A stretch of 34,433 nucleotides of DNA from Acetobacteraceae bacterium. GTDB taxonomy: Bacteria; Pseudomonadota; Alphaproteobacteria; Acetobacterales; Acetobacteraceae. Made by a program: the position numbers and the translations under genes. Below the pieces are notes generated by a model. The model saw only the letters and a list, made by a program, of their open reading frames with translations, did not search any database and was not told where the DNA came from. Below are positions 5,818-34,411 of this stretch, piece after piece. Position 1 is the first letter of the stretch. Every line of letters begins with the position of its first letter. The stretch lies in the NCBI GenBank assembly GCA_009693865.1, contig SHWL01000031.1, forward strand, positions 1 through 34,433, given 5' to 3'.

Positions 5818-5976
5818 AGCGTTTTCAATCGAGTTGCGTCGGGGGCCCCTCGTTCGTCATGGCACGGCTTGTCCGGGCCACCTGTTCCAGCACAGTTCCG
5901 CGACCGGTGGCCCGGACAAGCCGTGCCATGACGATTTGGAGAATACCGGCCCGAAGCAGCCTGATCGGAAATTACT
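5818..5976. repeat. Palindromic element A (28-bp arms, 23-nt loop, with outer inverted repeats)
   Basis: Seven bases after the cytochrome stop begins a nested palindrome. The inner part is a perfect 28-bp inverted repeat, 5855-5882 and 5906-5933, opening CGTCATGG and closing CCATGACG, around a 23-nt loop (5883-5905) ending CCGCGACC. Outside it, 5818-5841 (AGCGTTTTC...) and the complement of 5952-5976 (AGTAATTTCCGATCAGG...) form a weaker second inverted repeat. The element lies between convergent genes and could act as a bidirectional transcription stop, but its architecture is shared with element E (34333-34411) and its outer repeats with elements B and C, so it is more than a simple terminator. 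Confidence 0.9.
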
Positions 5977-5987
5977 TTATCCGCCGA

Positions 5988-6692
5988 TCATTGCCCCTTG
6001 GCCCAGGCGTCGTACCGGGCTTTGGTTACGGCGTTCGGGGGATACAGCCCGGGTAGCGGAACGCCTTTGTCCACTTCCGACATGATCCAGGCTTCCTGGC
6101 GTTCCTGTTCCGCCGCCTCGGTCGCGACAGCCTCGACCAGGGCCGCGGGGATGACAACGGCGCCATCGTCGTCGACCACAATGAGATCGTCCGGGAATAC
6201 CGCGACGCCGCCACAGCCGATCGGTTCGCCCCAACCGACGAATGTCAGGCCGGCGACGCTCGCAGGGGCGGCGACGCCCTGGCACCAGACGGGAAGGTTG
6301 GTGCCGAGAACACCGGCCACGTCTCGGACGACGCCATCGGTGATCAGCGCGGATACGCCGCGTTTGGCCATCCGTGCGCAAAGGATGTCGCCGAAAATCC
6401 CGGCATCGGTCACTCCCATCGCGTCCACCACTGCGATGCAGCCTTCCGGCATCGCCTCAATGGCGGCGCGGGTCGAGATCGGCGACGCCCAGGAGGCGGG
6501 GGTCGCGAGATCCTCGCGCGCCGGAACAAACCGCAGCGTGAAGGCCTTTCCAATTTGCCGTTTCAGCCCTGGGCGAATGGGTTTGGTGCCGCGCATCCAG
6601 ACGTTGCGAAGGCCCTTCTTCAAGAGGACGGTGGTGATGGTGGCCGTGGTGACACCTTCGAAGGCTTTGGCGAGTTCGGGATGGATGGTCAT
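5988..6692 (-). CDS. RraA-like protein (aldolase/RraA fold, COG0684)
   Basis: A 234-residue member of the RraA/4-hydroxy-4-methyl-2-oxoglutarate aldolase superfamily. The hallmark GDILCARMAKRGVSALITDG (101-120) followed by VVRD (121-124) carries the Gly-Asp loop and the Arg-Asp pair that bind substrate and divalent metal in the aldolases. RraA of E. coli is about 160 residues and inhibits RNase E; this longer form, with a C-terminal extension ending in YDAWAKGQ, is closer to the aldolase-like branch found in catabolic clusters. Substrate is unknown, and names such as dimethylmenaquinone methyltransferase used for this family are wrong. An MFS transporter gene follows upstream on the same strand (76-base gap), suggesting joint use in uptake and breakdown of a small acid. 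Confidence 0.8.
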   Translation of the reverse strand: MTIHPELAKAFEGVTTATITTVLLKKGLRNVWMRGTKPIRPGLKRQIGKAFTLRFVPAREDLATPASWASPISTRAAIEAMPEGCIAVVDAMGVTDAGIFGDILCARMAKRGVSALITDGVVRDVAGVLGTNLPVWCQGVAAPASVAGLTFVGWGEPIGCGGVAVFPDDLIVVDDDGAVVIPAALVEAVATEAAEQERQEAWIMSEVDKGVPLPGLYPPNAVTKARYDAWAKGQ

Positions 6693-6768
6693 GGTCTTTT
6701 CCGGGTTTTGAACTGGTGCGCGATTGTGCGCTGGGCCCCGAGGCGAGGCCAGAGGTCGCCATCCGAAG

Positions 6769-7965
6769 TCATCGACTGCCGTTTCGTTCGCCCGGCTTCT
6801 CCTGCGTTTCCGGCATCGCCAGCGCCACCAGCGTCACCGCGACCAGGCCTGCCGCCGCCAGCGCCCAGAACGCGGCCGCCCGGCCGAAATGGTCAGTCGT
6901 CCAACCCGCCACCGCCGAACTGACCGCCGTTCCCGCGCCACCCGCCAAACCGAGCAGGCTCAGGCACAACGTATAGTTCTTCCCACGGGTCAGGTCCGCC
7001 GCGACCAGCGGCATCATCACCCCGAACGCGGCGCCGCCCGCCCCCTCCAGCACCTGCACAGGCACCAGCACGTAGGGGTTGCGAACCGTCGCGAACAAAG
7101 CGCCCCGGATCGGCACGGTCGCGAAGCTGACCAGCAGCACCGTGCGGTGTCCCCACGTCTCCGCGACACGGCCAATCCAGGGAGAGATAAGAGCGACCAC
7201 GACCTGCGGCACGATCAGAAACGCCGCGATCACCAGGGCGCCGCGGGAGCCGAGGCGGGCCGTGACATCGACCGCGGCCAGTTGCAGAACCGCGATGCTG
7301 GCCACCTGAAACAGCGCGACACACAGCGCGTAAATCAGCAACCGGCGATCACGTAACAATGCGAATGGCGCGAAAAAACCTGGCTTCGCCTCGTCCGCGG
7401 GTTCCGGGGCGACCGGCGCCCTCTCCTGTCCGATCGCCCGTGCCGCCAGCAGCGCGGGCACCGTCAACAGCGCGGCCACAAAGAACGCGAGGCGTTGCGA
7501 CCCCAGGTATCCGCAAAGACCCATGACCGCCGCGCCCAGACCCGCGCCGATCGACCCATAGCGGCCATTGCGGCCGATCCGCTCACCCAGACCCTCGCGG
7601 CCCACAAGGCCAAGGCTGGTCGAGGCGATGATCGGGCCAAAGAACGACCCGGCGGCGGCCTGGATCACCATCGCCACCAGGATCGGCAAGCCACGCGGGA
7701 AAACCGCGAAGACCAGCGGCACAATCCCGGTCGCCACGATCCCGCAGTTCAATATGGTCCGGCGCCAGGGACCGAAGGCATCGACGATCAGGCCCGCCGG
7801 AACCGCCGATAGAATTCCAACGACGGTACTGATTGTCAGCACGACGCCAATGTGGGTCTGGGTCCAGGCCTGGCTGGTCAAATAGACCGGAACGAACGCG
7901 CCATAAGCCGACCCCATTCCCGCCAGCAGCAGGTTGAGCCCGTCCATCCCGCGATCTGGTTTCAT
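6769..7965 (-). CDS. MFS transporter
   Basis: A 398-residue major facilitator protein with the expected 12 hydrophobic segments. The first begins near LNLLLAGMGSAYGAFVPVYL, and the interior loop after helix 6 holds the charged PAPEPADEAKPGF-like stretch near residues 180-195. Motif A between helices 2 and 3 is weak (GLIVDAFGPWRR). The early helices, with YLTSQAWTQTHIGVVLTIS, resemble the sugar/drug exporter-like MFS_1 branch. Direction and substrate cannot be told. Its ATG overlaps the stop of the upstream PRC-barrel-like gene (ATGA), so the two are translated as a pair. It ends 76 bases before the RraA-like start. Confidence 0.88.
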   Translation of the reverse strand: MKPDRGMDGLNLLLAGMGSAYGAFVPVYLTSQAWTQTHIGVVLTISTVVGILSAVPAGLIVDAFGPWRRTILNCGIVATGIVPLVFAVFPRGLPILVAMVIQAAAGSFFGPIIASTSLGLVGREGLGERIGRNGRYGSIGAGLGAAVMGLCGYLGSQRLAFFVAALLTVPALLAARAIGQERAPVAPEPADEAKPGFFAPFALLRDRRLLIYALCVALFQVASIAVLQLAAVDVTARLGSRGALVIAAFLIVPQVVVALISPWIGRVAETWGHRTVLLVSFATVPIRGALFATVRNPYVLVPVQVLEGAGGAAFGVMMPLVAADLTRGKNYTLCLSLLGLAGGAGTAVSSAVAGWTTDHFGRAAAFWALAAAGLVAVTLVALAMPETQEKPGERNGSR

Positions 7966-8384
7966 TGGGCAGGGCGATCGACGACGATCAGGGTGTTGGC
8001 GGGCCCGCTCATTTCGGGGGCCGCCGCGGCCTCATCCAGGGTCAGATCCATGACGATCCGAGTGTCGCCAACGGCGTGGCTGAACCGAAGCAGCCGCCAG
8101 GCCACGGCGACCCGGCGCATGCCGACCCCCAGGAAGCCGCCGACATTGATCACGCCAGCCAGCGGTTTGCCGTCCTTATCGGCGAGAACATCGACCAGAA
8201 GTCCCACGTCAGTGCCCGCCGAATCGGTCACGCCGCGGCCCAGAAGCGTGCCTGCCTCAGACGCCGGAACCGGGCGGGAGGTCACCGGCTGTTGCGCTAA
8301 CGCAATAGCGTGAAAACACAACAAGGCGAACGCGAGCAATGCGGCGATCCATCGCCTGGTGGATAAAGGTGGCCGGCTATTCAT
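7962..8384 (-). CDS. Secreted PRC-barrel-like protein
   Basis: A 140-residue protein with a signal peptide (hydrophobic run LLAFALLCFHAIALA, then QQPV). The mature part carries a pattern like the PRC-barrel fold: SEAGTLLGRGVTDSAGTDVGLLVDVLADKDGKPLAGVINVGGFLGVG in segments of short strands and turns, in which G-x-x-V-x-D-x-x-G-x-x-x-G is characteristic. PRC barrels are small beta-barrels found in RimM, photosynthetic reaction centre H subunits and many alphaproteobacterial periplasmic proteins of unknown role. GGGAGG lies just upstream of the ATG at 8384. It is translationally coupled to the MFS transporter. The function is unknown. Confidence 0.7.
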   Translation of the reverse strand: MNSRPPLSTRRWIAALLAFALLCFHAIALAQQPVTSRPVPASEAGTLLGRGVTDSAGTDVGLLVDVLADKDGKPLAGVINVGGFLGVGMRRVAVAWRLLRFSHAVGDTRIVMDLTLDEAAAAPEMSGPANTLIVVDRPAQ

Positions 8385-8414
8385 GATCTTACCTCCCGAC
8401 AGCTTGCAGGGATG

Positions 8415-9185
8415 TCAATACATGTTGGTGCCGCCATTGACGTGGATCACCTGACCGGTGACGAAGCCGCCCGCCGGACTCGACAGGAACAGGCACGCGC
8501 CGGCGATTTCGTCGACATGGCCATAACGGCCCAACGGCACTTCGGCGATCACCTCTTCCCGCGTTCGATGCACATATTGCGTCCAATCGCGCACCGTATC
8601 GATCGGCCCGGGGGAGACGGTATTGGCGGTGATGTTGTCGGCACCGAATTCGCGGGCGATGGCCATGGCCAACCCGTGCATGCCGATTTTCGCGGCGACG
8701 TTCGGCGCGCGGTGCGTCACATGACCCCAGAACCCGTCAGCACCCGACATGACGATGATACGGCCGAATTTTTTCTCGCGCATATGCGGGATCGCCGCGC
8801 GAGCGAGATAAAATGCCGCGGACAGGTTGGAGCGTAGAACGTCGTCCCATTCCTCGGGCGTGATGTCCAGGAATGCGCGATATTTGCGAATCCCGACGTT
8901 CGAAACGACAATGTCGATGGCGCCGAAGGTTTTCACCGTCCGGTCGACCATGTCGCTGACAGCCCGATGGTCGGAGACATCCGCGAGCACCGGCAGCACC
9001 TCGCCGCCTCGCGCGCGGATGGCCTCGGCCGTCTCGTCCAGCGCGGCCTGATCGCGATGACCGTTGATCACGACCTTGGCGCCGGCCGCGGCGAAGCACT
9101 CCGCCACCGCGCGGCCGATATTGCGGCCCGAACCGGTGATCAGCGCGACCTTACCGTCCAGGCGAAAACCCTCCGTTGTCAGCAT
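8415..9185 (-). CDS. Short-chain dehydrogenase/reductase family protein without the catalytic Tyr
   Basis: A 256-residue SDR with a normal nucleotide-binding N-terminus, TGSGRNIG (17-24), the D-V pair near residue 69 (VLADVSD), and SNVG at 95-98 in place of NNAG. Ser147 in IIVMSGADG sits where the catalytic Ser belongs, but the YxxxK motif reads NVAAK (162-166), so the Tyr is Asn; no other Tyr lies between the Ser and the Lys. Substrate-side SPGPID follows as usual. It could be a binding or regulatory SDR, or use another acid. The ATG at 9185 with GGGAAAG upstream is chosen over a longer frame, because it begins one short segment before the Rossmann motif. It diverges from greB. Confidence 0.85.
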   Translation of the reverse strand: MLTTEGFRLDGKVALITGSGRNIGRAVAECFAAAGAKVVINGHRDQAALDETAEAIRARGGEVLPVLADVSDHRAVSDMVDRTVKTFGAIDIVVSNVGIRKYRAFLDITPEEWDDVLRSNLSAAFYLARAAIPHMREKKFGRIIVMSGADGFWGHVTHRAPNVAAKIGMHGLAMAIAREFGADNITANTVSPGPIDTVRDWTQYVHRTREEVIAEVPLGRYGHVDEIAGACLFLSSPAGGFVTGQVIHVNGGTNMY

Positions 9186-9298
9186 GTCTATCTTTCCCTG
9201 CGTTTCCCTTTGGGGGCGCCCCATCGCCACATCTGGCGGCATGAGGCACGTGTCGGCAAGTCCTGGCCGCGCGGCGGTGATGCGCATATCATGGGACC

Positions 9299-9829
9299 AT
9301 GAGCGGCACGACAATCATCGACGATGAGGACGACGGCCCGCCGCGCCTGGCCGGCGGAAAGTTCTACATGACGCCCGTCGGCCATGCCGCGCTGAACGCC
9401 GAACTCCACCAGCTCCGCGCCGTCGAGCGCCCAAAAATCGTCGACATCGTCTCCTGGGCCGCCGGCAATGGCGACCGGTCGGAAAACGGCGATTACCTGT
9501 ATGGCAAGCGCCGCCTGCGGGAGATCGACGGGCGGACACGCTTCCTCATCCGCCGGCTGCGCCATGCCGAGGTGATCGATCCCCGCCACCAGACCAATCG
9601 CGCGCAGGTGTTTTTCGGCGCCTCGGTCACCTACATCAACGAGCGGGACGAGGAACTGACCGTGACGATCGTCGGTGTCGATGAAGCGGACATGGCTCAG
9701 GGAAAAATCAGCATTGCCTCCCCGGTCGCGCTGGCATTGTTGCGGGCGCGAGTGGGTGGCGAGGTCTCGGTCCGGACACCGCGAGGCACCGAGATCGTCG
9801 AGATCCTGGCGATCGCGTATCCGTCATGA
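9299..9829 (+). CDS. greB: GreB/GreA-family transcription elongation factor
   Basis: A 176-residue Gre factor. Gre proteins enter the secondary channel of RNA polymerase and stimulate cleavage of backtracked RNA. The N-terminal coiled-coil domain includes ALNAELHQLRAVERPKIVD and the tip motif GDRSENGDYLYGKRRLREID (58-77), whose acidic residues position the catalytic metal and whose form (D-Y-x-Y-G-K) is GreB-like rather than GreA-like. The C-terminal FKBP-like domain begins near VFFGASVTYINE. About 16 extra acidic residues (TTIIDDEDDGPP) precede the usual start; the Shine-Dalgarno is weak. The stop overlaps the pfkB start by ATGA. A 113-base gap separates it from the divergent SDR gene. Confidence 0.9.
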   Translation: MSGTTIIDDEDDGPPRLAGGKFYMTPVGHAALNAELHQLRAVERPKIVDIVSWAAGNGDRSENGDYLYGKRRLREIDGRTRFLIRRLRHAEVIDPRHQTNRAQVFFGASVTYINERDEELTVTIVGVDEADMAQGKISIASPVALALLRARVGGEVSVRTPRGTEIVEILAIAYPS

Positions 9830-10738
9830 CCCGTATCGTGACCGTGACGTTGAATTCGGCGATCGACCTCGCGTGTTCCGCGGAAACCGTCCGGCCCACG
9901 CATAAAACCCGCACCTTCGACGAACATATCGATCCCGGCGGCGGCGGCATCAACGCCGCCCGCGTGCCGCACGCTCTGGACTGCGACACATTGGCCGTGA
10001 TTCTCGCGGGCGGCGTGACCGGCGCGTTGATCGAAGACCTGCTGACCGAAGCGGGCGTGGCGCACGAAACCCATCCACTGCCGCGGCCGCACCCGCATCA
10101 GTTTCACCGTGTTCGAGCAGGCAACGAAGCTGGAATACCGGTTCGTCCCGCAAGGACCCACCGCCGGACCGCACGACTGGAGCGAGATCCTCGCGCGCCT
10201 CGAACAGATCGAATGCGGCTGGATCGTCGCCAGCGGCAGCCTGGAGCCCGGCATTTATGCGACAATCGCCCGCCTTGCGCGCCGTCGCGCCATTTGCTTC
10301 GCGGTCGATACGTCCGGCGCACCACTGCGCGCCGCCCTGGAGGCGGGCGTGGACCTCGTTAAACCGAGCCTGAGCGAACTGGAGGGGTATGTCGGCCACG
10401 CGTTACCCACCGCGGCGGAGCAAGAGGCCGAGGCAATGTCCCTCGTCCTCGCCGGACACGCCGCCCTTGTCGCCGTTACCCTGGGCGAACAAGGCGCGAT
10501 CCTGGCCTCGGCTGAAGGTGTGCTGCGCATGCCCGCCATTCCCGTACCGTTTCGCAGCGCGGTCGGCGCCGGAGACAGCTTCGCCGCTGGCATAACCTCG
10601 GCTTTATCGCGCGGCGCATCGAACCGCGAGGCGCTCAAATGGGGCGTCGCGGCCGGCACCGCCGCGGTCGCAAGGGCTGGCACGGCACGCGTGCGACGGG
10701 AAGACGTCGAGGACTGGTATTCAAAATTGCCCGCGTGA
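9826..10738 (+). pseudogene. pfkB: PfkB-type phosphofructokinase, frameshifted
   Basis: A ribokinase-family sugar kinase, closest in pattern to PfkB, which phosphorylates fructose 6-phosphate (or tagatose 6-phosphate). The first 86 codons, with VTLNSAIDLACS and DPGGGGINAAR (sugar-binding GGGG-N), are in one frame. From about 10085 the rest, beginning GRTRISFTVFEQATKLEYRF and including the catalytic and anion-hole motif GAGDSFAAG, is in another. Removing one base in the run ccgcggccgc (10081-10090) joins them into a 303-residue protein of normal family length. Both halves keep good codon use, so the lesion is either recent or a sequencing error. A start inside the second half at 10109 would lack the sugar-binding domain and would not be functional. 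It overlaps greB by 4 bases. Confidence 0.85.
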
Positions 10739-11779
10739 TCAGGCGGCGAAACCTTTGAACACGCTCGGGATCTTCTTCAACGCCTCGATCGTTCCGCGCC
10801 GGACTGAGGCTGGCGTGCCCTCGACGAAATCGACCGACACGGCGTCGACGATGCCGCCGTAACGTTTTTCCACGGCCTCGGCCAGGCCTTCGTACGGCGC
10901 GCGGGCAACAAACAAATCCAGCACGTCATCGGACACCTGACGTGCCATGTCTCCCCATTGGCCCGCCCGCGACATCTCGTTCAATTTGATCCCCAGATCG
11001 CCTATGCCATGCTGATCGAACACGCCGCGATAGGCCGGGGTCGAGCCATAGAACGCAACGCGGTAACGAACTTTTTCCGCCGCGGCCTCGACCGCTTTTT
11101 CATCCGGACCCGTCGCGATGAACCCGCCGCCGGTCATCTCGAAATTCTCGAACGACTTGCCGGCTTTGGCGAGTTCAGCGGCGAGCAATGGCCGCACGAC
11201 CTCGTCGACGTATCGCTTCGTCGCGAAACTGTGCAAACGTACACTATCGGCCACTCGCGCGGCGGTTTTCAGCATCAGCGGTCCGACGGCGGCCATGGCG
11301 ATCGGGGGCAGCCGCAATTTTTGCGGACCTGGTGAGAACTCCGGCGTCATCAGCGAGAACTGATAATGCTTGCCCTGATAATTCAGTTTCTCCCCGTGTT
11401 CCCAGCAGCGGAAGATCGCGCGCAGCGACTCGACGTATTCGCCCAGACGCGCGGCGGGCGCGATCCAGGGCACGCTGAACCGGCGTTCGTTGTGGCCTTT
11501 GACCTGCGAGCCCAGGCCGACGACGAAGCGGCCGTTGGAGTGGCGATTGAGGTCCCAGGCGTGGTTGGCGACGATCATCGGGCTGCGCGGAAACGCGATG
11601 GCGACCGAGGGCACCAGCGTGACACTCGCGGTCGCCAACGCCGCGAAAGCCAGCGGCGTGAACGGATCGTGCCGCAATTCATTGCTGGTGAGCACGTCGA
11701 CGCCGTCATCCTCGGCCTGGCGCGCCGCTTTGGCGCAGGCGGACCAATCGTGAACGGGCAATCCCATCGATACGCGCAT
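10739..11779 (-). CDS. LLM-class flavin-dependent oxidoreductase
   Basis: A 346-residue bacterial luciferase-like monooxygenase family protein. The TIM-barrel pattern is present: MGLPVHDWSACAKAARQAED at the first helix, LVPSVAIAFPRSPMIVANHAWDLN in pieces, and RFVVGLGSQVKGHNERRF, the glycine-rich stretch that contacts FMN or F420. The overall form resembles the subgroup often annotated as F420-dependent, but alphaproteobacteria using this subgroup may employ FMN, so the cofactor is open. GGAGAT lies just upstream of the ATG at 11779. Its stop directly abuts the pfkB stop of the opposite strand (tgatca, 10736-10741) with no spacer. It diverges from the SDR-CaiB operon and may act in the same catabolic module. 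Confidence 0.88.
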   Translation of the reverse strand: MRVSMGLPVHDWSACAKAARQAEDDGVDVLTSNELRHDPFTPLAFAALATASVTLVPSVAIAFPRSPMIVANHAWDLNRHSNGRFVVGLGSQVKGHNERRFSVPWIAPAARLGEYVESLRAIFRCWEHGEKLNYQGKHYQFSLMTPEFSPGPQKLRLPPIAMAAVGPLMLKTAARVADSVRLHSFATKRYVDEVVRPLLAAELAKAGKSFENFEMTGGGFIATGPDEKAVEAAAEKVRYRVAFYGSTPAYRGVFDQHGIGDLGIKLNEMSRAGQWGDMARQVSDDVLDLFVARAPYEGLAEAVEKRYGGIVDAVSVDFVEGTPASVRRGTIEALKKIPSVFKGFAA

Positions 11780-11865
11780 AGGTTATCTCCCTTTTATTCC
11801 CCGGCAGTTTGCCGCCCGCCGCCCGGTCCCGTAAACCTGGGGTCAACGTAGAGGAGTCAAACCGC

Positions 11866-12630
11866 ATGGGCAGCCTGGCGGGCAAAGTCGCTATCGTCAC
11901 CGGTGCGAGTCGCGGGATCGGCGCCGCGGCGGCCGCCGCATTGGCCAACGAGGGTGCGACCGTGATGTTGACCGCGCGGGACGGGCGCCTCGCCGCCGAT
12001 GTCGCGCGGAGTATCGTCGAGGCTGGCGGCAAGACCAGCTCACGGGCCTGCGACGTGTCCGATTACAAGGCTGTCGAGGCGCTGGTGGCGGAAACCGAAG
12101 GCCGTTTCGGCCGAGTCGATATCCTGATCAACAACGCGGGCGTGATCGAGCCGATCGCCACCGTCGCGGACAGCGACCCGGCCGTCTGGGCGCGCAATAT
12201 CGAGATCAACCTGACTGGCGCTTACCACCCGATCCGGGCGCTGCTGCCGCGCATGATCGCGGCGGGCGGCGGCACCATCGTCAACCTGTCCTCGGGCGCC
12301 GCCATGCGTCCGTTGGAGGGATGGGGCGCCTATTGCACCGCCAAGGCGGGCCTCGCGATGCTGACGCGCGCGGTCGCGCTGGAGAACCAGGCCAACGGCA
12401 TCCGGATTTTTGGCTTCCAGCCGGGAACGACCGATACGGACATGCAGGTCACGATCCGCGCGTCAGGGATCAATGTGATCAGTAAGATCCCACGCGAGAA
12501 TCTGACGCCGGTCAAGCTTCCCGCCGCGGCCATCGTTTACCTGTGCACGCCGGCCGCCGATGACCTGAACGGGCAGGAGTTCGGGCTGCGCGAAGAAGCC
12601 TTTTTCAAACGTCTGAACCTGGGGAACTGA
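11866..12630 (+). CDS. Short-chain dehydrogenase/reductase
   Basis: A 254-residue classical SDR: NAD(P)-binding TGASRGIG (12-19), DVSD (63-66), NNAG (89-92), active-site Ser142-Ser143 and a complete YCTAK (156-160). It probably oxidises or reduces a hydroxy/keto group on a CoA ester or acid, given the CoA transferase that follows 2 bases later. GAGGAG precedes the ATG at 11866; the longer upstream frame (from 11809) lacks a ribosome site. It is first in a rightward set with the CaiB, M20 and amidohydrolase genes, diverging across 86 bases from the LLM enzyme. Confidence 0.9.
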   Translation: MGSLAGKVAIVTGASRGIGAAAAAALANEGATVMLTARDGRLAADVARSIVEAGGKTSSRACDVSDYKAVEALVAETEGRFGRVDILINNAGVIEPIATVADSDPAVWARNIEINLTGAYHPIRALLPRMIAAGGGTIVNLSSGAAMRPLEGWGAYCTAKAGLAMLTRAVALENQANGIRIFGFQPGTTDTDMQVTIRASGINVISKIPRENLTPVKLPAAAIVYLCTPAADDLNGQEFGLREEAFFKRLNLGN

Positions 12631-12632
12631 CG

Positions 12633-16030: not shown

Positions 16031-16044
16031 GTAGGGGAGCCACC

Positions 16045-23124: not shown

Positions 23125-23603
<479 letters not shown>

Positions 23604-24902: not shown

Positions 24903-25102
24903 GAAGGGCGGTTCCCTGAAGCGGCGTGCATGGCGGGAGGCATACCTGAAACGACCATCGCTGATCCAGGCGGTAGGGCGCGCACGAGCGCAGCCCAGAT
25001 CGTCACGCGTTCAGGTGCCATTGGCGATTTCTCCACGTCGGGTGCGGGATTGGAGCAAGGGTTGGCGGTTGGGGCAAGCGTGGCTCAAGTTGCGAGTGTT
25101 AA
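24903..25102. other. Upstream region of the CYP153 set
   Basis: No supported gene. It must hold the promoter for the leftward reductase-ferredoxin-P450 genes, but I see no clear promoter or operator. Together with element C it separates that operon from the HigBA remnant. The missing N-terminal half of higB is not recognisable here. Confidence 0.5.
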
Positions 25103-25204
25103 AGTGTTTTCCGACCTGGTCGAATCGCCTCCCCCCGTCATGGCCCGGACGAGCCAAGCCATGACGGGAGGGGGGTTTTCGATGCAACCTGATCGGAAAC
25201 CGCT
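25103..25204. repeat. Palindromic element C (outer 25-nt inverted repeat around a CGTCATGG core)
   Basis: Outer arms 25103-25127 (AGTGTTTTCCGACCTGGTCG...) and the complement of 25180-25204 (AGCGGTTTCCGATCAGGTTG...) match at 19 of 25 positions. The core has CCCGTCATGGC (25135-25145) and its exact complement (25158-25168). The centre, TGGCCCGGACGAGCC, matches one arm of element A nearly base for base, as if C were a shortened A. Its right edge lies 12 bases before the surviving part of the higB toxin. Confidence 0.85.
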
Positions 25205-25216
25205 ATAGATACCGCT

Positions 25217-25372
25217 GTGCGGCTTGAGAACCTCCGCCATCCGCCCGGCAACCTGTTAGAGGCATTGACCGGGGACCGCCGGGGACAACACAACATTCGG
25301 GTGAACGATCAGTGGCGGCTGTGTTTCATCTGGAGGGACGGCGCGGCACATGATGTTGAGATTACGGATTAG
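25217..25372 (+). pseudogene. higB: HigB/RelE-type toxin, N-terminus missing
   Basis: About 51 codons of a HigB/GraT-type mRNA-cleaving toxin: RLENLRHPPGNLLEALTGDR, then GQHNIRVNDQWRLCFIW and HDVEITD before a TAG. This is the C-terminal half of a normal protein of about 92 residues and keeps the conserved NDQWRLCF strand. An in-frame stop at 25190-25192 precludes a longer N-terminus, and about 40 residues are lost. GTG 25217 is only the first possible start. It lies 18 bases before the antitoxin, the normal order for higBA. The truncation point coincides with the edge of element C. Confidence 0.75.
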
Positions 25373-25390
25373 CACTGACGGAGAGAAACC

Positions 25391-25708: not shown

Positions 25709-25737
25709 CAAATGGTCTCGCGAGCGGCGCGCGCGCG

Positions 25738-26409: not shown

Positions 26410-26474
26410 GGACGCATTTGATCCGGATCGGCGGTGATTCGCAAAGTCCGCCGCCACGCCGGTCCGAAGCGCGC

Positions 26475-26921: not shown

Positions 26922-26931
26922 GGCCGCGGCC

Positions 26932-27879
26932 TCAGGGACTGATGTGGCCGATGAATTTCTCCGGCGGGCGAGTGCCCCACTGCGACCGCAGCCCTTCCTC
27001 CGCCGACACCAGATTGCCGCCGTTACGCGCGTTCAACCGGTCGGTGTCAGCCCAGTGCTCGTGGATCCGGCCCCAGGGATCAGCCCAGTAGTCGTAGACC
27101 TGACTGCCAAGCAGATGACGGCCGATGCCCCACATGTGGTCGTATTTGCCGGTGCCGTTCAGGTATTCGTGGCCCATGAACACGTCGTCGATATCCTGCA
27201 CCTCGAACGAGAAGTGATTGAGCCCGGCACGCGCGTTTTTCATGCAGAAGAACGCGTGGTGGTCGACGTAATCGTCGCCCGCGTCGATCCGGCTGAACTG
27301 CCCAATCAGATTGTCTTTCTCGCCGGCATAAACATCGTCCGAGCAGATCAAGCCCAGAGTTTCGCGGAACCAGCGGACGGTTTCCTGGTTCTTCGGCGAG
27401 CCCATGACCGCGTGGCCGATCCGCTTCACCGTGGACGGGCCAACGGGGAACCGGATCACCTCACCAGCGCGGTTCAGCGGCGCGGCGCCGGAGTTGATGG
27501 CCTGACGGGCGACATGGATCGGCGCCAGGGATTCGATGCCATGCACGATTTCGATCGTATAGCCGTTGGGTTCCGTCAGGCGGACACGTTTGCCGCCGCC
27601 GGGCTCGTCGATCGTTTCGATGCCCGAGGCGCCGGGCAATTTCGCGACGGCCTTCAGATCGGCCTCGTCCGCGACAGCCCAGGCGAACCCGATGAACCCG
27701 GGATCGCCCTTTTCGGTGACGTGGATGTGATGCGCCGGATCGGTGCCGCGCATGTAAAGCGCTTTGTCCGTCCGCGCCGCCCGCGCCATCCCAAACGCCG
27801 TCAGGAATGCCTCCTGGGCGTCCAGATCCGGCGACCGGATCCGGCCGTAAGCGAGGTCTCGAACTTTGATGCCTGCCAT
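26932..27879 (-). CDS. Two-domain VOC protein, extradiol dioxygenase-like
   Basis: A 315-residue protein with a non-catalytic N-domain and a C-domain that holds the likely Fe(II) triad: His in IGHAVMG (about 157-163), His in LNHFSFEV and Glu in HEHWADTDR. This is the layout of type I extradiol ring-cleavage dioxygenases such as catechol 2,3-dioxygenase. Aromatic ring cleavage is possible, but the family also contains enzymes on other substrates. GGGAGAG upstream supports ATG 27879 rather than GTG 27885. It leads a leftward set with the smaller VOC and DUF2161 genes. Confidence 0.85.
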   Translation of the reverse strand: MAGIKVRDLAYGRIRSPDLDAQEAFLTAFGMARAARTDKALYMRGTDPAHHIHVTEKGDPGFIGFAWAVADEADLKAVAKLPGASGIETIDEPGGGKRVRLTEPNGYTIEIVHGIESLAPIHVARQAINSGAAPLNRAGEVIRFPVGPSTVKRIGHAVMGSPKNQETVRWFRETLGLICSDDVYAGEKDNLIGQFSRIDAGDDYVDHHAFFCMKNARAGLNHFSFEVQDIDDVFMGHEYLNGTGKYDHMWGIGRHLLGSQVYDYWADPWGRIHEHWADTDRLNARNGGNLVSAEEGLRSQWGTRPPEKFIGHISP

Positions 27880-27947
27880 GATCACTCTCCCACGACGGTG
27901 TTTTCCGGGACGCTATAACCCGGCGGGCGCCGGAACAACCCCGGGCA

Positions 27948-29840
27948 TCATATCGCGATGCGGACGCCCAATTCGACGACGCGATCGCTGGGGATACGGA
28001 AGAACTCCGTGGCCGGGACGGAGTTGCGCGCCAGCCAGAGAAACAGCCAGCGCCGCCACCAGGAGATATTCGGCGCCATTCCGGGAACAAGGACCTCGCG
28101 GCCGAGGAAGTAGCTCGCCTGCATCGCGTCGAAACCAGCTTCGGGTCCCAGATCTTCCAGCGCGCGCGGAATGTTCGGGCTTTCCATGAAACCATAGCGC
28201 AGCATCACGCGATGGATGCCGGGCGCCAGTTCCTCGACCGTCGAACGCTGGTCTGGGGCTTCCTCCGGACGGTCCGTGGTTTGCACGGTCACGAACATTA
28301 CCTTCTCGTGCAACACCTTGTTATGCTTGAGGTTATGCAGCAACGACGTTGGCACGTAATCCTGGTTGCCGGTCAGAAACACGGCGAGCCCAGGCACGCG
28401 GAGGATGCTGCGCGATCGCGGCAGGCGCGCGAGGAACGGGGCGATCGGCATGCTGTCCTGGCGCCACCGCGCCAACAGCAATTCCCGCCCGCGCCGCCAC
28501 GAGGTCATCAAAGCCATCAGCGCGAGGCCGAGAACCAGCGGGACCCACCCGCCTTCGAGCAATTTCAGGCTGTTCGCGGCGAAAAACACCGCGTCGACGA
28601 GGAATACGCCACCAAATATCGCGACGGCCGCGGCGCGCGGCCAATGGAACTGACGGCGGAACACCACCATCGCCAGCACCGTGTCGCACATGAACGTGGC
28701 CGTGACCGCGATGCCGTAGGCCGACGCCAGATTACTCGAGGTTTTGAACAGCACGACAAGGATCAGGACACCCGCGAGCAGTGCGGTGTTCACTTGCGGA
28801 ACATAGATTTGGCCCTCCTCGGTGTTCGAGGTGTGGCGGACGGTCAGGCGTGGCAGCAAGCCTAACTGCATGCATTGCCGCGCGACGGAATAAGCGCCCG
28901 AAATGACAGCCTGGCTGGCGATCACGGTCGCCGCCGTGGCCATCAGGACCAGCGGCAACCGGCTCCATTCCGGCGCCATCAGGAAGAACGGATTTTCCAC
29001 CGCGGACGGATCCCGCAGGATCAACGCGCCCTGGCCGAAGTAGTTAAGGGTCAGGCTCGGAAGAACGATGAAGAACCAGCTGATCCGGATCGGTTTGCGC
29101 CCAAAATGGCCCATGTCGACATATAGCGCCTCGGCCCCGGTCACGCAGAGCACGACGGCCCCAAGAGCAAAAAACGCGAGGCCTTTGTAAGTGGCGCAGA
29201 GCGCGATCGCATGCAACGGCGACAGTGCCAGCAGCACCGAAGGACGATGAATGATCTGAGCGATACCCAGGATGGCCAGAAGCAGAAACCAGGCGGCCAT
29301 GACCGGCCCGAAAATCCGTCCGACGCTGCTCGTGCCGCGATACTGCACCGCGAATAGCGCGATGATCACCGCCAGGCTGATCGGCAGGACGTATTGTTTC
29401 AGGGTCGGTGCCGCGATCTCCAACCCCTCCACCGCGGACATGACCGAAATCGCCGGTGTGATGATGCCGTCGCCAAAGAACAGACAGGCGCCGACGATCC
29501 CGACGAGGCCAAGCGCGTGACGGGTTCCCGCGTTGACCGAAACCCGCTGCGCCAGGGCTGTCAGAGCCAGAATTCCGCCCTCGCCGTGATTGTCCGCGCG
29601 CATGATCAGCGACACGTATTTCACGGTGACGATCAGAATGAGCGACCAGAAGAACAGCGACAGGAGACCGAGAATCTCGGTTTCGCTGATCGGAACGCCT
29701 TCGAAGACCTGGAGGCTCGCCTTCAGGGCATACAGCGGGCTGGTGCCGATGTCGCCATAAACGACGCCGATCACCGCCAGGAGCGCGCTTACCGATGGAG
29801 CCGTCCTCGGCGCGGGCTCAGCAGGGTCCGGATTGGTCAA
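27948..29840 (-). CDS. kup: Kup-type potassium uptake protein
   Basis: A 630-residue membrane protein that imports K+ with protons. It opens with [20 protein letters not shown], the hallmark of Kup, and has 12 hydrophobic segments over about 430 residues followed by a soluble C-terminal domain. [16 protein letters not shown]-like and [19 protein letters not shown] segments are also typical. No ATG or GTG lies in the right place and the frame starts with TTG at 29840, which would be a weak start. It follows gcrA on the same strand after 139 bases. Confidence 0.93.
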
Positions 29841-29979
29841 ACTGTGTCTCGGCCAAAAGTCCGGTACGTCGTATCGACCATGTCACACCCCGCGTCGCCC
29901 CGGCCAGCCGATATCGGGCGGCGGTCGATTACGCTCGCGGCGGGTGACTGTCAAAGGGCAAGACGGGCAAGGGGATGCG

Positions 29980-30570
29980 TCACGCGGCGTCCTCGCGCCG
30001 GTCGCGCACCCTGACGTAAGCGACCTTCACGTGGTCCTCGCAATACGGCCGGCCCGGCTCGGACGGCACGTCGCAGAAGTGAAAATCGCGGGTTCCCGGC
30101 TCGCCCAACGGCCAGCAGCAGGTGACGATCCGCCCGTAAGGTCTGGGCGCGGCGGCGACCTGCCGGGGCTGAGGGGCCGCCATCGGACGTGGCGGGGCCA
30201 TCGCCGGCCGAGGCGAGGGCGGCGCCATGACGACCGGTCGCGCGATCACCCGTGGCGCGGCAGCTGGCGCCCTTTGGACCGGCGCGGCGGGAGTGGTACC
30301 GATGACGGTGAAGGATTGATCCCCATCGCTCACCGTGCTTGCCAAAGGCGGCAGCGTCGGACCCTCGACCCGGCGGACAACCGCGAGGCGGACCGGCGCG
30401 GCATCGGGATCGCGGCGGATCGGCGACGGGCGGGCGGGCAAATCGAGTCTGTGCGCCTTGCCAACGATGGCATTCTTCGTCACGCCCAGACGGCGCCCGA
30501 TCTCGGCGGTGGAAAGCCCCTCCGCCCAGAGCCCGCGCAACTGGCCAATAATCTCGTCGCTCCACTCCAT
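29980..30570 (-). CDS. gcrA: GcrA-family cell-cycle regulator
   Basis: A 196-residue alphaproteobacterial regulator. The N-terminal HTH domain, MEWSDEIIGQLRGLW then STAEIGRRLGVTKNAIVGKA (in 45 residues), is diagnostic. GcrA binds sigma70-RNA polymerase and activates promoters containing methylated GANTC sites; in Caulobacter it acts between DnaA and CtrA. A Pro/Ala-rich middle leads to a C-terminal Cys-containing segment (TCCWPLGEPGTRDFHFCD ... YCEDH), which binds sigma factor domain 2 in Caulobacter. GGAGG precedes ATG 30570; the upstream start at 30597 is less likely. A DnaA-box-like sequence and a GAGTC lie about 100 bases upstream. Confidence 0.93.
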   Translation of the reverse strand: MEWSDEIIGQLRGLWAEGLSTAEIGRRLGVTKNAIVGKAHRLDLPARPSPIRRDPDAAPVRLAVVRRVEGPTLPPLASTVSDGDQSFTVIGTTPAAPVQRAPAAAPRVIARPVVMAPPSPRPAMAPPRPMAAPQPRQVAAAPRPYGRIVTCCWPLGEPGTRDFHFCDVPSEPGRPYCEDHVKVAYVRVRDRREDAA

Positions 30571-30660
30571 CTTGTGACCTCCCTCGGATCCAGACACCAG
30601 ATACAGTATCGTGGTCGAAGCCAGGTCTCAATGGAAGAAATGCACGTTCCCACAAAAAGT

Positions 30661-30676
30661 TGTGGACAACCGAGTC
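30661..30676 (-). promoter_or_regulatory. DnaA-box-like site and GANTC methylation site upstream of gcrA
   Basis: TGTGGACAA (30661-30669) is the exact complement of TTGTCCACA, a DnaA box form common in GC-rich bacteria. Two bases farther from gcrA, GAGTC (30672-30676) is a GANTC site for the CcrM methylase. Both lie 90-106 bases before the gcrA start. In Caulobacter, DnaA activates gcrA and methylation of GANTC tunes cell-cycle promoters, so the placement is sensible. A single match of each could occur by chance. Confidence 0.5.
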
Positions 30677-30721
30677 CCACACCACAAGATATGGGGTTTC
30701 AGACCTTCCCGAGCGCGTCGA

Positions 30722-31675
30722 TCAGAACAAAAGCCCCTTTTTCAGCAAACCATGCACGCCCTTTTCCCCGTTCACCGTTTGGGTGACGTGGAAATCGACC
30801 GCCAGAGAGCAGAATTGATAGGCTTGCTCCCGCGACAGATTGGAGCGGGCGGCGATGAAGGCGATCATCTGACGCAGCGCCTGTTTCATCGCGAGGTCGA
30901 GGTCCTCGTTCATGCCCATGGTGATGAAATGGCCTGGCGTTTCCGCGCGCGGATAGGTCAGCAACGGCGCCGCGCCAGTCTTCTTGTGCAGAACCAGTGT
31001 GAAGGTTCCGGTCAGGCAGATTTCCAGCGCGTTGATGCAGACCTCGCCGTCGCCCTGGACGCCATGGCCGTCGCCCGCGGAGAACAGCGCGCCTGGGGCC
31101 CAGACAGGCAGAAACAACGTCGAACCGGCCGTCAACTCCTTGTTATCCAGGTTGCCGCCATGTTCGCGCGGCTGGATGGTGGAGATCGTGCCGTAGCGCG
31201 GCTGCGGCGCGACACCCATGACCCCGAAGAACGGCGCCAGTGTCAGCTCAGTGCCCCACGGCAAACGGCAGGTGCCCTTGGCACGGTCAACCGGGATGTG
31301 GCTCAGATACCGGTCCGGAAAATCCTCGGGCAGCGTGCCGGCCAGCGGGCGGAACCCGCAATAACCCCAGTCGTTGCCCACTTCGATCGCATCGATGCGG
31401 ACTTCCAGCATGTCGCCAGGCTCCGCTCCGGCCACGCCGACCGGTCCGGTCAGGATATGACCTCCCGCGCGGGGGATCTTCGAGGCATGGATCGCCGCCA
31501 GCGCGGGCGGGATCGTCATGCCGGAGCCCGGGGGCGGCATGACCTCGGGCGCGCCGGAGACGCATTCCAGGACGACGGTGTCGCCGGACTCGATCGTGAT
31601 GAGGGGTGGATAGGCGGCGTCGAACGTGCCCCAGCGGGCGGTCTCCGGACCGGCGGAGAGACGATGTGTGGGCAT
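30722..31675 (-). CDS. Acetamidase/formamidase family hydrolase
   Basis: A 317-residue FmdA/AmdA-type amidase, which releases ammonia from formamide, acetamide or similar small amides. Typical segments are THRLSAGPETARWGTFDAAYPP, PVGVAGAEPGDMLEVRI, PREHGGNLDNKELTAGSTLF in part, and FSAGDGHGVQGDGEVC, where the His/Asp/Glu residues are likely metal or catalytic ligands. GGAG lies upstream of ATG 31675, which is favoured over the frame from 31720. It stands between gcrA and tatA in the same orientation, without an obvious partner transporter. Confidence 0.9.
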   Translation of the reverse strand: MPTHRLSAGPETARWGTFDAAYPPLITIESGDTVVLECVSGAPEVMPPPGSGMTIPPALAAIHASKIPRAGGHILTGPVGVAGAEPGDMLEVRIDAIEVGNDWGYCGFRPLAGTLPEDFPDRYLSHIPVDRAKGTCRLPWGTELTLAPFFGVMGVAPQPRYGTISTIQPREHGGNLDNKELTAGSTLFLPVWAPGALFSAGDGHGVQGDGEVCINALEICLTGTFTLVLHKKTGAAPLLTYPRAETPGHFITMGMNEDLDLAMKQALRQMIAFIAARSNLSREQAYQFCSLAVDFHVTQTVNGEKGVHGLLKKGLLF

Positions 31676-31848
31676 GAGGGCTCCTCGATCCTGAGTTATG
31701 CTGCTGTAGGTAACCAGCATTCCTCAGGATAAGGCCAGCGCTTCTGACGTAAAGTCGTTGCCCGGCGGTTCTTGACGATCAGCGGGACCGAGAGCCGGCC
31801 GCGCGCCATGGCCCGGCGATCACGTCCCGATCGCGGACAAATGTGACG

Positions 31849-32094
31849 CTACGCGCGTTCTTTGGCGGTTTCGCGCGCCGCGGGCTGGGCTTTTCCGTCC
31901 GGTCCGGTGATCGAGCCCGCGTTCTTGTCGGCGCTGGCCTCCATCGAGACGTCGTCGGGTTCCGCCATGTTTTTCTTGAAGGACTTGATGCCCTTGGCGA
32001 AGTCACCCATCAGACTGCTGACCTTGCCGCCGCCAAACAGCAGCAGCACGACCAAAAGCACGACGGCCCAGTGCCAAATGCTGAAGCTGCCCAT
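31849..32094 (-). CDS. tatA: Twin-arginine translocase subunit TatA
   Basis: An 81-residue protein with one N-terminal membrane helix ([19 protein letters not shown]), the Phe-Gly hinge FGGGK, an amphipathic helix ([16 protein letters not shown]) and a polar tail. TatA polymerises to form the pore for folded proteins. Two exported proteins of this window would be suitable cargo in principle; CopA has a clear Tat signal. tatB and tatC are not next to it, which is a common but not universal arrangement. ATG 32094 is chosen; a longer frame to 32223 has no membrane start. Confidence 0.93.
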
Positions 32095-32494
32095 GATTCC
32101 TCCGTCCAACCCGCGCCCCCGGTTCTGGCCGCGCCAGCCGGTTGCCGCACAAATGGCGCGGCCCGCGCCCCGATGCAAGCGGGATATGGATGCGCGCCGG
32201 GACAATCGGCCGAAACCTGGCAAATGCCGGGCTGAATTGCCCGCGGGTTCCCCCCCCTCCGAGCTTTTCTCTCACGCGGTCAATCTTTCGCGTCTTTCGT
32301 GACACGATTCGTTGCCGTCAGCGCTTCGAACGGATAACGTCACGTCCGGAGGCCCATCCCGGCCGCCTGAACGATGCCGGGAACGCCACCGAGGGAGGGC
32401 GTCGCGGTGAGTATCGCCGTCGCGCCCCTGTGCAACAGGGTGGCCTGCCTGGGGTCCCTGACGGACCGCCCGCGACCGGAAAGGCGACACGACG
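32095..32494. other. Divergent intergenic region between tatA and the cold-shock gene
   Basis: 400 bases with no supported gene. It must hold promoters for both flanking genes. Close to the cold-shock gene, two small hairpins follow each other: CCCTG-tgcaa-CAGGG (32426-32440) and GGTCC-ctgac-GGACC (32453-32467). They could form a structured 5' leader, as cold-shock mRNAs often have. A GANTC site (GATTC) is at 32306-32310. None of these is decisive. Confidence 0.4.
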
Positions 32495-32704
32495 ATGCCC
32501 ACTGGCACCGTGAAATGGTTCAACGCAACCAAAGGCTACGGCTTCATCGGCCCGGAGGCCGGGGGCAAAGATATTTTCGTTCACATCAGCGCCGTCCAGA
32601 AGGCCGGCATGCGCACCCTCAACGAGGGGCAAAAACTGTCGTTCGAGATCGAACAACAGGCCAATGGCCGCGCGGCCGCGGTCAACCTGGGGGAGGAGGC
32701 CTGA
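32495..32704 (+). CDS. Cold-shock domain protein (CspA family)
   Basis: A 69-residue single cold-shock domain, an RNA chaperone. It has [19 protein letters not shown] with RNP1 (KGYGFI) and RNP2 (IFVHISAV), and the usual end [15 protein letters not shown] precedes ATG. Many alphaproteobacteria have several such proteins, and induction by cold cannot be inferred, though the long upstream region could hold a leader. Confidence 0.95.
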
Positions 32705-32809
32705 CCCGTCATCAGGCGACGCCCGCGATCCCCGCGGCGGCCATGTCGCACTCGATGTCCCGAACCTGGGCCATGGGCCAAAGACCGCGGGCCGGTCACG
32801 GCAATTGTG

Positions 32810-32974
32810 ATTTTGGCGCTGACGCTTGCTTTTTCGTCACCCTCCGGCGTGACCGGAGGATCGGAAGCGGCACAAATCCGCGTATAAGCGCGCCGGAAAG
32901 AAAGGCGTGGTGCCGCTCCGGATCCTCCGGGCACGCCGGAGGATGACGATTGGGGAGAGGTCAGCAGCCAAAAT
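32810..32974. repeat. Palindromic element D (39-bp arms, with outer inverted repeats)
   Basis: Inner arms 32835-32873 and 32910-32948 are inverted copies with 35 of 39 positions paired, beginning CGTCA and ending TGACG, around a 36-nt loop. Outside, ATTTTGGCGCTGAC (32810-32823) and the complement of 32960-32974 (ATTTTGGCTGCTGAC) form a second inverted repeat with one inserted base. Outer repeats differ from those of A, B and C, so it is probably a different subfamily with the same nested plan. It fills much of the 352 bases between the cold-shock and methyltransferase genes; the remainder shows nothing else. Confidence 0.85.
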
Positions 32975-33056
32975 GAGAATTACTGGGCCGATCACGTAGG
33001 GCTTGCACGACACCGATCTGTCATCTAGGCAGACAACGAATTGGGGATGGGCCGCG

Positions 33057-33737
33057 ATGAGTCATACCCTGGAAGAACGCGTCCGATCGCGGCGCCTGCC
33101 AGGCGCTACACCTGAGGTCGCACTCGATGCCGCCGCGATCCGGGACGCATACCGGCGCTGGTCTGGCTTTTACGATGTCGTGTTCGGCGGAGTCTCGTCG
33201 GCGGGACGCAAACGGGCCGCCGCGCTGGTCAACCGCCTGCCAGGGCGCGCCGTATTGGAAGTCGGAGTCGGCACCGGCCTCGCCTTGCCACGTTACACAC
33301 CTGACAAGCGAATCGTCGGCATCGATCTGTCCGCGGAAATGCTTGCCCTCGCGCGCCGCCGGGTCACGGAACTTGGTCTGCGGAATGTCGAGGGCCTGCT
33401 GGAAATGGACGCCGAGGCGACCGATTTCTCCGATGGGCAGTTCGACACGGCGGTGGCGATGTTCGTGGCCTCGGTGGTGCCGAATCCCCGCCGCTTGCTC
33501 GCGGAGTTGCGGCGCGTGGTGAAGCCGGGCGGCAATATCCTGCTGGTTAATCATTTCGCCGCCCAGGGTGGTCCACGCTGGTGGGTGGAACGGGCGATGG
33601 CGCCGATGTCCCGGCGCCTGGGGTGGCACCCCGATTTCGCCATGCAGGCGTTGTTCGAGGCCGAGGATATCGCCGGAATCGAGACCAGCAAGGTGGCGCC
33701 GTTCGGGATTTTCACTTTGGTGCGGCTGCGGAACTGA
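33057..33737 (+). CDS. Class I SAM-dependent methyltransferase, PmtA-like (phospholipid N-methyltransferase)
   Basis: A 226-residue methyltransferase. Motif I, AVLEVGVGTGLALP (65-78), and the preceding YRRWSGFYDVVFGGVSSAGR segment resemble the Rhodobacter-type phosphatidylethanolamine N-methyltransferase, which forms phosphatidylcholine. IVGIDLSAEML (motif II region) and GGNILLVNHFAAQGG (post-motif) follow. A role in membrane lipid methylation is a good guess; UbiE-like methylation of other substrates is the alternative. ATG 33057 is favoured over TTG 33003 on start-codon grounds. It is alone on its strand between element D and the convergent dehydrogenase fragment. Confidence 0.8.
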   Translation: MSHTLEERVRSRRLPGATPEVALDAAAIRDAYRRWSGFYDVVFGGVSSAGRKRAAALVNRLPGRAVLEVGVGTGLALPRYTPDKRIVGIDLSAEMLALARRRVTELGLRNVEGLLEMDAEATDFSDGQFDTAVAMFVASVVPNPRRLLAELRRVVKPGGNILLVNHFAAQGGPRWWVERAMAPMSRRLGWHPDFAMQALFEAEDIAGIETSKVAPFGIFTLVRLRN

Positions 33738-33841
33738 CAGTTCCGCGGCTACAACGGATCCCGGGCCGGGACGCGAAATCCCACCTTTACCGCCGCATCT
33801 CACTTCATGGCTTCACGACCGGCCCCCGGCACGCGCCAGCT

Positions 33842-34333
33842 TTACCCCCACCGGCGATACGCCGCCGCGTCAGCCACCCGCCGCTCAGCGAGAGCCAGCG
33901 CGGCCTCCCTTGGCGGGCAATGCCGGGATGCGGCGGCCTCCAGTACGTCTCGCGTATTGGCGGCGATTTTTCCGGCGATCGTCGCGTAGGCGGCCGCCTG
34001 GGTACCGCCACGATACTCGATGGCGGCACAGATCACGCCGCCCGCGTTGGCGCTGAAATCCGGCAAGACCAGAATGCCGGCGGCATGCAGCGCGGCTTCA
34101 GCCTCGGGAGTCGCGGGAATATTGGCGCCTTGCGCGACCATCCTCGCCCGTAGCCGAGCCACGTTGTCGACCCGCAAGACGTCTGGACGGGCAGCGGGGA
34201 TCCAGATTTCACAGGGCACGCCGACGATGGCGTCGCGATCCAGCTTCTCGCCGCCCGGATACGCCGACAATGGACGATGTCCCGACTTAGGCGACGCCCA
34301 AAGACTACCGAGTCGCGCCGCCTTCCTTTCCAC
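33842..34333 (-). pseudogene. Glu/Leu/Phe/Val dehydrogenase, C-terminal part only
   Basis: The visible 163 codons hold the C-terminal part of a glutamate dehydrogenase-type enzyme: VPCEIWIPAARPD, AQGANIPATPEAEAAL, GILVLPDFSANAGGVICAAI and an extension ending in AAAYRRWG. The family-like part starts at about 34282 (GHRPLSAYPGGEK). Normal enzymes are 400 or more residues, with substrate-binding N-domain and Rossmann GxGxxG, all absent here. Upstream lies element E, in which this frame stays open to the window edge (34432). It is therefore either a 5'-truncated gene or a complete one carrying an in-frame palindrome with its N-terminus beyond the window. The GTG at 34333 is not a convincing start. 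Confidence 0.6.
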
Positions 34334-34411
34334 GTCATGGTTCGGCTCGACCGGACCATCCGAAGCGGCACTGTACCGCGACCGATGGTCCGGTCGAGCC
34401 GAACCATGACG
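34333..34411. repeat. Palindromic element E (28-bp arms, 23-nt loop)
   Basis: Perfect inverted repeat, 34333-34360 and 34384-34411, with a 23-nt loop. It opens CGTCATGG and closes CCATGACG. Arm and loop lengths equal those of element A. The arms differ from A at six positions, each change matched by its complement on the other side, and 16 of 23 loop bases are the same, including the final CCGCGACC. Outer repeats like those of A cannot be judged, because the window ends 22 bases farther on. It lies at the upstream edge of the dehydrogenase fragment. Confidence 0.9.

Follow-up and report, generated by a model that had tools for sequence, protein, structure and literature searches.

Two palindromes far apart in one stretch of DNA from an uncultured Acetobacteraceae bacterium share arm and loop sizes, and the question they raise is whether such a hairpin is kept or copied as a structure and how it came to occupy both places. 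By the window we mean the whole 34,433-nt stretch that was analysed; its own genome is a draft of 4.48 Mb in 209 contigs, 80.9% complete. Re-reading the sequence confirmed that both palindromes, designated elements A and E (Table 1), are perfect hairpins with 28-bp arms around a 23-nt loop, and by eye we likewise found that the six left-arm differences claimed between them (arm positions 9, 10, 16, 18, 23 and 27) are compensated and that the loops are identical at 16 of 23 positions, the last eight (CCGCGACC) among them. Folded as single-stranded DNA, A and E reach -41.1 and -42.5 kcal/mol (z-scores -10.6 and -14.1), and 0 of 200 shuffles were equally stable. The window contains 12 occurrences of the motif CGTCATGG, where 2.4 would be expected. 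Rfam, applied to the window with gathering thresholds, gave 0 matches, and a search of plasmids with A gave none. For a potassium transporter encoded in the window, the named protein nearest to it comes from an Acetobacteraceae MAG (84% identity).

Table 1. Positions of the hairpins, MITEs and interrupted gene in the window
Feature	Position	Strand	Remarks
MITE of an older type, T5 (GAGCGTTTTC...), about 161 bp, A at its centre	5817..5977	.	ends placed by eye, decayed
Element A: head-to-head dimer of CGTC-tagged REPs, 28-bp arms and 23-nt spacer	5855..5933	.	
T5-type MITE with one long hairpin (23513-23569), not a dimer, at its centre	23486..23603	.	
T5-type MITE centred on a collapsed single CGTC hairpin	25102..25207	.	
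Dimer with CGTC tags and arms of a different type (CGTCACCCTCCGG / CCGGAGGATGACG)	32835..32948	.	
Glutamate dehydrogenase gene split by a MITE, C-terminal part	33842..34286	-	uninterrupted frames in L311, L312
TTA, presumed target duplication of 3 bp, left copy	34287..34289	+	right copy past the contig end
ISAzo13-type MITE (type T1), first 144 of 168 bp	34290..34433	+	contig ends inside the MITE
Element E: CGTC-tagged REP dimer, GTTCGG arm type	34333..34411	.	

The arms themselves identify the elements. In the fold, the E arm, CGTC-ATGGTTCGG-CTCGA-CCGGACCAT-C, forms a 9-bp stem with a 5-nt loop and leaves CGTC unpaired in front, and the A arm has the same 5-nt loop on a stem interrupted by an internal mismatch (4 and 3 pairs). 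Both A-T pairs at the first two stem positions form in E and only the second in A, and the unpaired tail at the untagged end starts with C in both elements, with no clear fit to CCA. In the arms of both, a short stem-loop carries an unpaired CGTC at one end. A superfamily of CGTC-tagged REPs was described in 2013 by Di Nocera et al. (PMC3733652), and A and E are head-to-head dimers of such REPs, each arm itself being a short CGTC-tagged palindrome. According to the accessible part of that paper, most CGTC REPs are arranged in head-to-head dimers whose spacers are, as a rule, conserved, so the suggestion that a 28-23-28 plan with a conserved loop was undescribed does not hold.

A and E are not a private pair and belong to a large family, well above chance. 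The pattern GTCATGG-N(61-91)-CCATGAC (75-105 nt) matches 185 places genome-wide, and its reversed control 0. Among the 50 matches listed, which are those of the first contigs in order, 37 are exactly 77 nt long and 43 measure 75-79 nt; a 77-nt match becomes 79 nt with the outer C and G, which is the 28-23-28 plan. A pattern of 46-76 nt found 16 further or overlapping places, 51-76 nt long, and shorter forms of the hairpin therefore exist. E-type copies are over-represented among the loci fetched from the same genome, where 77 nt is the length of 64 of 77 places, and the 42 distinct 77-nt sequences among fetched loci comprise 22 with perfect arms, 13 with 1-2 mismatches and seven with 3-9. The preliminary description had taken the plan as fixed; it is largely kept (those 37 of 50 listed matches), but its length is mostly rather than strictly constant. 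The same description had suggested that the hairpin may belong to a repeat class with CGTCATGG/CCATGACG ends, and the genome-wide family bears this out. Beyond this genome, a similar loose pattern gave 10 or more matches in 24 of the 32 other members of the genus, a number reached by 2 of the 25 genomes taken from the family's other genera; counts within the genus run from 0 to 479 (reversed control up to 2), the low ones in relatives including chance matches.

Similarity between E and its relatives extends well past the hairpin. When the 200 bases around E were compared with the genome, at least 40 places matched beyond the 79 bp, 40 of 177 candidates having been scored, and more such places are possible. 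The repeated unit, the T1 element, is 168 bp long and has inverted ends (GGCGACGCCCAAAGA...) with the dimer at its centre. Nineteen complete copies were found (15 of 168 bp and four of 170 bp), and 18 of them have identical 3-bp flanks: nine TTA, eight TAA and one AAA, the exception reading TCA/TTA. A genome search by the T1 end alone gave 81 matches, among which, by eye, 21 pairs lie less than 180 bp apart and 19 of these are spaced 173-176 bp with the 3-bp flanks counted. The fetched loci hold 27 T1 end pairs, one of them spurious; identical 3-bp flanks accompany 22 of the remaining 26 over all lengths and 15 of 15 of the 168-bp form (TTA or TAA). A CGTC-type hairpin is present in 25 of the 26, a proportion biased by the choice of some fetched loci by their dimer and counting one locus, L127, that the script had classed as 'other' and that was reassigned to the CGTC type by eye, its arms reading GTCATCCCC. 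No clearly empty T1 or T2 MITE was found in this genome, the one candidate (L125) being a deletion derivative. At least 15 of the 40 E-type places adjoin contig ends, as expected because near-identical repeats break assemblies.

A 168-bp MITE flanked by 3-bp TWA duplications is the footprint of transposition, and these footprints establish, as read from the sequence, that the T1 MITE has evidently transposed as one unit, hairpin included, to many sites. For the earlier proposal of a hairpin that transposes by itself we saw no evidence: what moves in the case of E is a 168-bp MITE with 3-bp duplications, the hairpin forming its centre, and A lies in a different MITE. The exact 21-base T1 end has no match in 84,980 named genomes, a set from which the genome itself or a very near one was possibly left out, and of 59 genomes searched for a shorter form of the end, TWAGGCGACGCCCAAA, nine contain it, all of the same genus and the present one included. 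One genome, G029, contains shorter elements with like ends and without CGTC tags, either empty or decayed.

Related genomes connect the T1 end with the ISAzo13 family. There it adjoins fragments of ISAzo13 transposase genes at two loci, L167 (PF07592, 3.8e-23) and L185 (1.5e-7), and a similar, not identical, T1-type end stands beside the gene in 3 of 15 fetched ISAzo13 loci (L216, L217 and L220). At L217 the end reads GGCGACACCCAAAGTCTACCGAATC, close to GGCGACGCCCAAAGACTACCGAGTC of the window copy, and L216, from genome G017, has both ends, GGCGACCCGCAAAAACTACCG and GGCAACCCGCAAAAACTACCG, with TAA on each side and an open frame of 402 aa. The other 12 of the 15 show no clear T1-type end, being truncated or of other types. 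PF07592 was above the cut-off in 14 of 33 genomes of the genus; no ISAzo13 transposase (PF07592) was found in this 80.9% complete draft, and one of the PF07592 searches had no match in its control genomes either.

Less firmly, A too appears to sit at the centre of a MITE, one that is older and has other ends. These T5 ends read GAGCGTTTTC.../...CTTTA in A, and an 18-base T5-end pattern with up to two mismatches gave 47 matches. To the T5 copies L030 and L113 the right flank of A shows 82-90% identity over 40 nt (90% to L113), and the left flank, in an ungapped comparison, has diverged to 30-35% (30% to L113). Four other places share an identical 77-nt core, from which that of A departs in two letters, which form a compensated pair at arm position 10. 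An RraA-like ORF and an unclassified ORF flank A and converge on it. The ends of A's own MITE are decayed and it has no clear target duplication; TA stands on both sides, by eye, in the T5 copies L139, L149 and L157, and not in the others. A 29-nt piece of T5 weakly matches three Bradyrhizobium plasmids (E 0.05), and in two of them the match falls at an annotated IS630 transposase. Since a second T5 end was not found in the one Bradyrhizobium plasmid examined, a MITE of IS630 type with a TA target is possible for A as a lead only. T5 ends also occur apart from dimers: among 30 loci fetched by the T5 end, at least three (L137, L162 and L163) have, by eye, no CGTC hairpin in the printed stretch, and the window holds two copies with other centres (Table 1).

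At its place in the window, the MITE around E splits a predicted glutamate dehydrogenase ORF. The ORF piece beside the MITE matches ELFV_dehydrog (1.5e-26), and a search of 32 genomes with this piece found long matches in three (L310, L311 and L312). The gene was read in L311 and L312, where the frames are uninterrupted, 378 and 379 residues from stop to stop, whereas the match in L310 lies on the other strand; counted on the relatives' enzyme, the window's ORF breaks off near residue 220. With its duplication the MITE comes to 171 bp, which is divisible by three, and through the visible part one frame stays open. A search of the fetched loci of the own genome for the dehydrogenase's N-terminal half found nothing. 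Most T1 copies are outside long ORFs: around 16 of the 19 complete copies, no frame reaches across the empty site with 80 codons to either side.

How general is carriage of this kind? Six of the 50 listed dimers had too little flank, which left 44. The same end motif stands on both sides of 21 of these, at least one motif on either side of 37, and none beside seven; 2000 random window positions away from the elements, taken as a control, gave four with the same motif on both sides and 358 with at least one. In 16 of the 44 motifs are present without a matching pair, some of these flanks being hybrid, with one type per side. Judged by similarity alone, flank-to-flank complementarity exceeded all 60 shuffles in 25 of the 44. 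Carriage of dimers in MITEs thus appears common, though it is not demonstrable for every dimer.

The core appears to behave as a paired structure. Covariation between the arms, which the preliminary description had named as the check to make, is real across the family: among the 42 distinct sequences both partners have changed in 10 pairs, over 60 cells, and the highest values reached by 500 shuffles, which do not preserve relatedness, are 9 and 23. It is also seen after thinning to 30 sequences (10 pairs and 29 cells against maxima of 7 and 13) and to 20 (9 pairs and 25 cells against 7 and 14). Covariation within the arms is weaker; in the 42 sequences it amounts to 2 and 3 pairs against shuffle maxima of 3 and 3, and to 8 and 9 cells against 5 and 4, and in the thinned sets (30 and 20) the difference is small or gone. 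Positions 15, 16 and 18, which would be unpaired if the REPs folded singly, vary and are largely compensated.

The core is also unusually uniform. In 39 E-type rows the 79-bp core has five variable columns, all singletons, against 26 of 47 columns in the adjoining stretches, and the 15 complete copies of the 168-bp form, recognised by their ends, show three singletons in 1185 core cells against 14 in 705 cells alongside. Private changes are about eight times rarer in the E-type core than in the adjoining sequence, a rough effect size, the rows being related by descent and some loci having been fetched by a core match. Singletons in the MITE ends, which were themselves a search criterion, are about as rare as in the core (3 of 1187 against 5 of 3081, p = 0.69). 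Uniformity of the core fits arm-to-arm correction, conversion between copies, or selection. A core that is more uniform than its backbone, and common to diverged backbones, is not what a pure passenger model predicts.

In light of these observations, we consider it quite probable that A and E are CGTC REP dimers forming the palindromic cores of two MITE families in this uncultured Acetobacteraceae bacterium, that the dimers hitchhike in these elements, and that the core is kept as a structure. The CGTC dimers would spread as passengers of MITEs that are served in trans by unrelated DDE transposases, and hitchhiking of this kind would explain why a dedicated CGTC transposase has not come to light. 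What keeps the core may be selection, gene conversion among the copies, or correction of one arm by the other while the DNA forms a hairpin or cruciform. A bolder form of this account, which we think rather unlikely but worth stating, makes the CGTC dimer a parasite of MITEs: the hairpin core would have been inserted or converted into the centres of several unrelated backbones, homogenised faster than the backbone mutates, and then distributed genome-wide by the backbones' DDE transposases.

Several other readings must be weighed against hitchhiking. The dimer may be a REPIN-like mobile unit, with a RAYT-type or other hairpin-recognising enzyme that favours palindrome centres, so that the MITEs would be landing sites and not vehicles. 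This would suit the T5 copies L030 and L113, which have 0 core differences at flank identities of 68% and 85%, the 170-bp copy from C35, with one core difference in a clearly different backbone, and L095 and L124, whose flanks, by eye, face the opposite way from those of L057 and L114 in relation to the core; another genus (G070) moreover has the spacer centre GCAC(N)GTGC as well, and a like spacer accompanies other arms in L127. Such an enzyme was nevertheless sought in vain as Y1_Tnp (PF01797) in this draft (80.9% complete), a search that found it in 5 of 14 control genomes; the accessible part of PMC3733652 records no transposase gene flanked by CGTC repeats; and there is no clearly empty T1 or T2 MITE, 25 of 26 end pairs being occupied, in loci partly chosen by their dimer, and the other being a deletion derivative. 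We regard this reading, which is compatible with hitchhiking, as improbable.

Equally improbable is a hairpin that is chiefly functional, as a terminator, an mRNA-stabilising stem or a protein site, and is kept by selection with mobility incidental; it too could hold alongside hitchhiking. The very stable fold, the covariation between arms, the conservation of the core across E-type copies and the place of A between converging RraA-like and unclassified ORFs are all consistent with a function, yet E interrupts a gene, Rfam at gathering thresholds has no match in the window, and counts from 0 to 479 within one genus resemble those of a mobile repeat more than those of a fixed regulatory element. 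That A and E are two unrelated chance palindromes is virtually inconceivable, being refuted by the 185 matches against 0 in the reversed control and by the z-scores of both folds.

Hitchhiking in MITEs bears on an older question, since the accessible part of PMC3733652 leaves the multiplication of CGTC REPs unsettled, and MITE carriage offers an answer. That part reports no transposase gene with CGTC repeats on its flanks and no dedicated transposase, describes associations between CGTC elements and transposase genes as few and fortuitous, and puts forward two ideas, that the original enzyme was lost or that a broad spectrum of transposases mobilises CGTC REPs. For the second of these, MITE carriage with flank duplications provides direct sequence evidence from one genome, and ISAzo13 is one transposase family that can now be named for testing CGTC REP mobilisation. 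The uniform core beside drifting flanks further offers a natural comparison for studying arm-to-arm correction of long bacterial palindromes. Head-to-head CGTC REP dimers are already known (PMC3733652); their position at the dyad centres of MITEs is what we did not find in print, in so far as the sources were accessible, and a literature search outside preprints and most subscription papers met no report of CGTC REP dimers as MITE cores with target duplications, the nearest work being PMC3733652.

The elements can be placed among several known systems. Elements of the ISAzo13 family in the same genus share with the T1 MITE its ends and its 3-bp TWA flanks; compared with an ISAzo13-family MITE, T1 carries in addition a CGTC REP dimer core, and the transposase of the family was not found in this draft. 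Rickettsial palindromic elements resemble A and E as CGTC-type palindromes able to sit in genes, and differ in that E arrives within a 168-bp MITE. Lichenicola cladoniae, one of the Alphaproteobacteria, is a member of the Acetobacteraceae. The accessible part of PMC12306157 gives it as an example with 1,369 REPs. REPINs, which are mobilised by RAYTs (PMC3116915, as far as accessible), are alike in having two inverted REPs, one long hairpin with a spacer and many copies; they differ in their GTAG tag, which is absent from A and E, where the tag is CGTC, and in this draft no Y1_Tnp gene was found.

The closest likeness is to the CGTC REPs of PMC3733652, in whose accessible part RPE-4 and RPE-6 of the rickettsiae are themselves counted as CGTC repeats. 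A and E share with them the CGTC tag, a stem of 8-9 bp, a loop of 4-5 nt, head-to-head dimers with conserved spacers and the want of a dedicated transposase, and the abundance of CGTC REPs in Alphaproteobacteria described there fits the present genome. That source also describes CGTC-1 dimers of H. neapolitanus within 41-bp palindromes. Unlike the cases given there, the palindromes around many of the dimers in this genome are MITEs of several types, one of which has an identified IS family and clear flank duplications.

At one locus (L127, G000:C183) we found a MITE with T2-like ends enclosing a dimer, the head-to-head pair of CGTC-tagged REPs, whose arms are of the GTCATCCCC type and whose spacer is nearly the usual one despite these arms; this pairing suggests that the arms and spacer of the dimer evolve separately. 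A further CGTC-tagged dimer lies in the window itself.

Coordinates of the features discussed
Feature	Location	Remarks
MITE at L127	L127 (G000:C183), ~1003-1170	T2-like ends
Further CGTC-tagged dimer	window 32835-32948	arms differ (CCTCCGG type); spacer longer
MITE within the dehydrogenase ORF	window 34286-34433	visible part and duplication

By eye, T1 copies at two loci (L321 and L316) are nested with other dimers, inserted either within the spacer or next to it, and the copy at L316 is flanked by a half-dimer similar to the further dimer of the window. The third inverted-repeat type, T3, has 23 ends with CATCAGGATAA in own-genome loci, a biased set mostly picked for dimers, and the near-invariant GGCCCGG of a CGTC REP arm precedes them, as if REP hairpins were the T3 target. 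When L095 and L124 are compared with L057 and L114, the flanks appear by eye to run the other way round with respect to the asymmetric spacer, much as they would after an inversion of the core within its palindromic MITE.

The relative G032 holds 16 short matches to the C-terminus of ISAzo13, the family whose ends resemble those of T1; 10 of them fall at contig starts, and together these suggest that many copies of an autonomous element are present there.

In the window, the dehydrogenase ORF would gain 171 bp (57 codons) from the MITE together with its duplication, and one frame is open through the visible part of the MITE, an arrangement reminiscent of the in-frame rickettsial palindromic elements.
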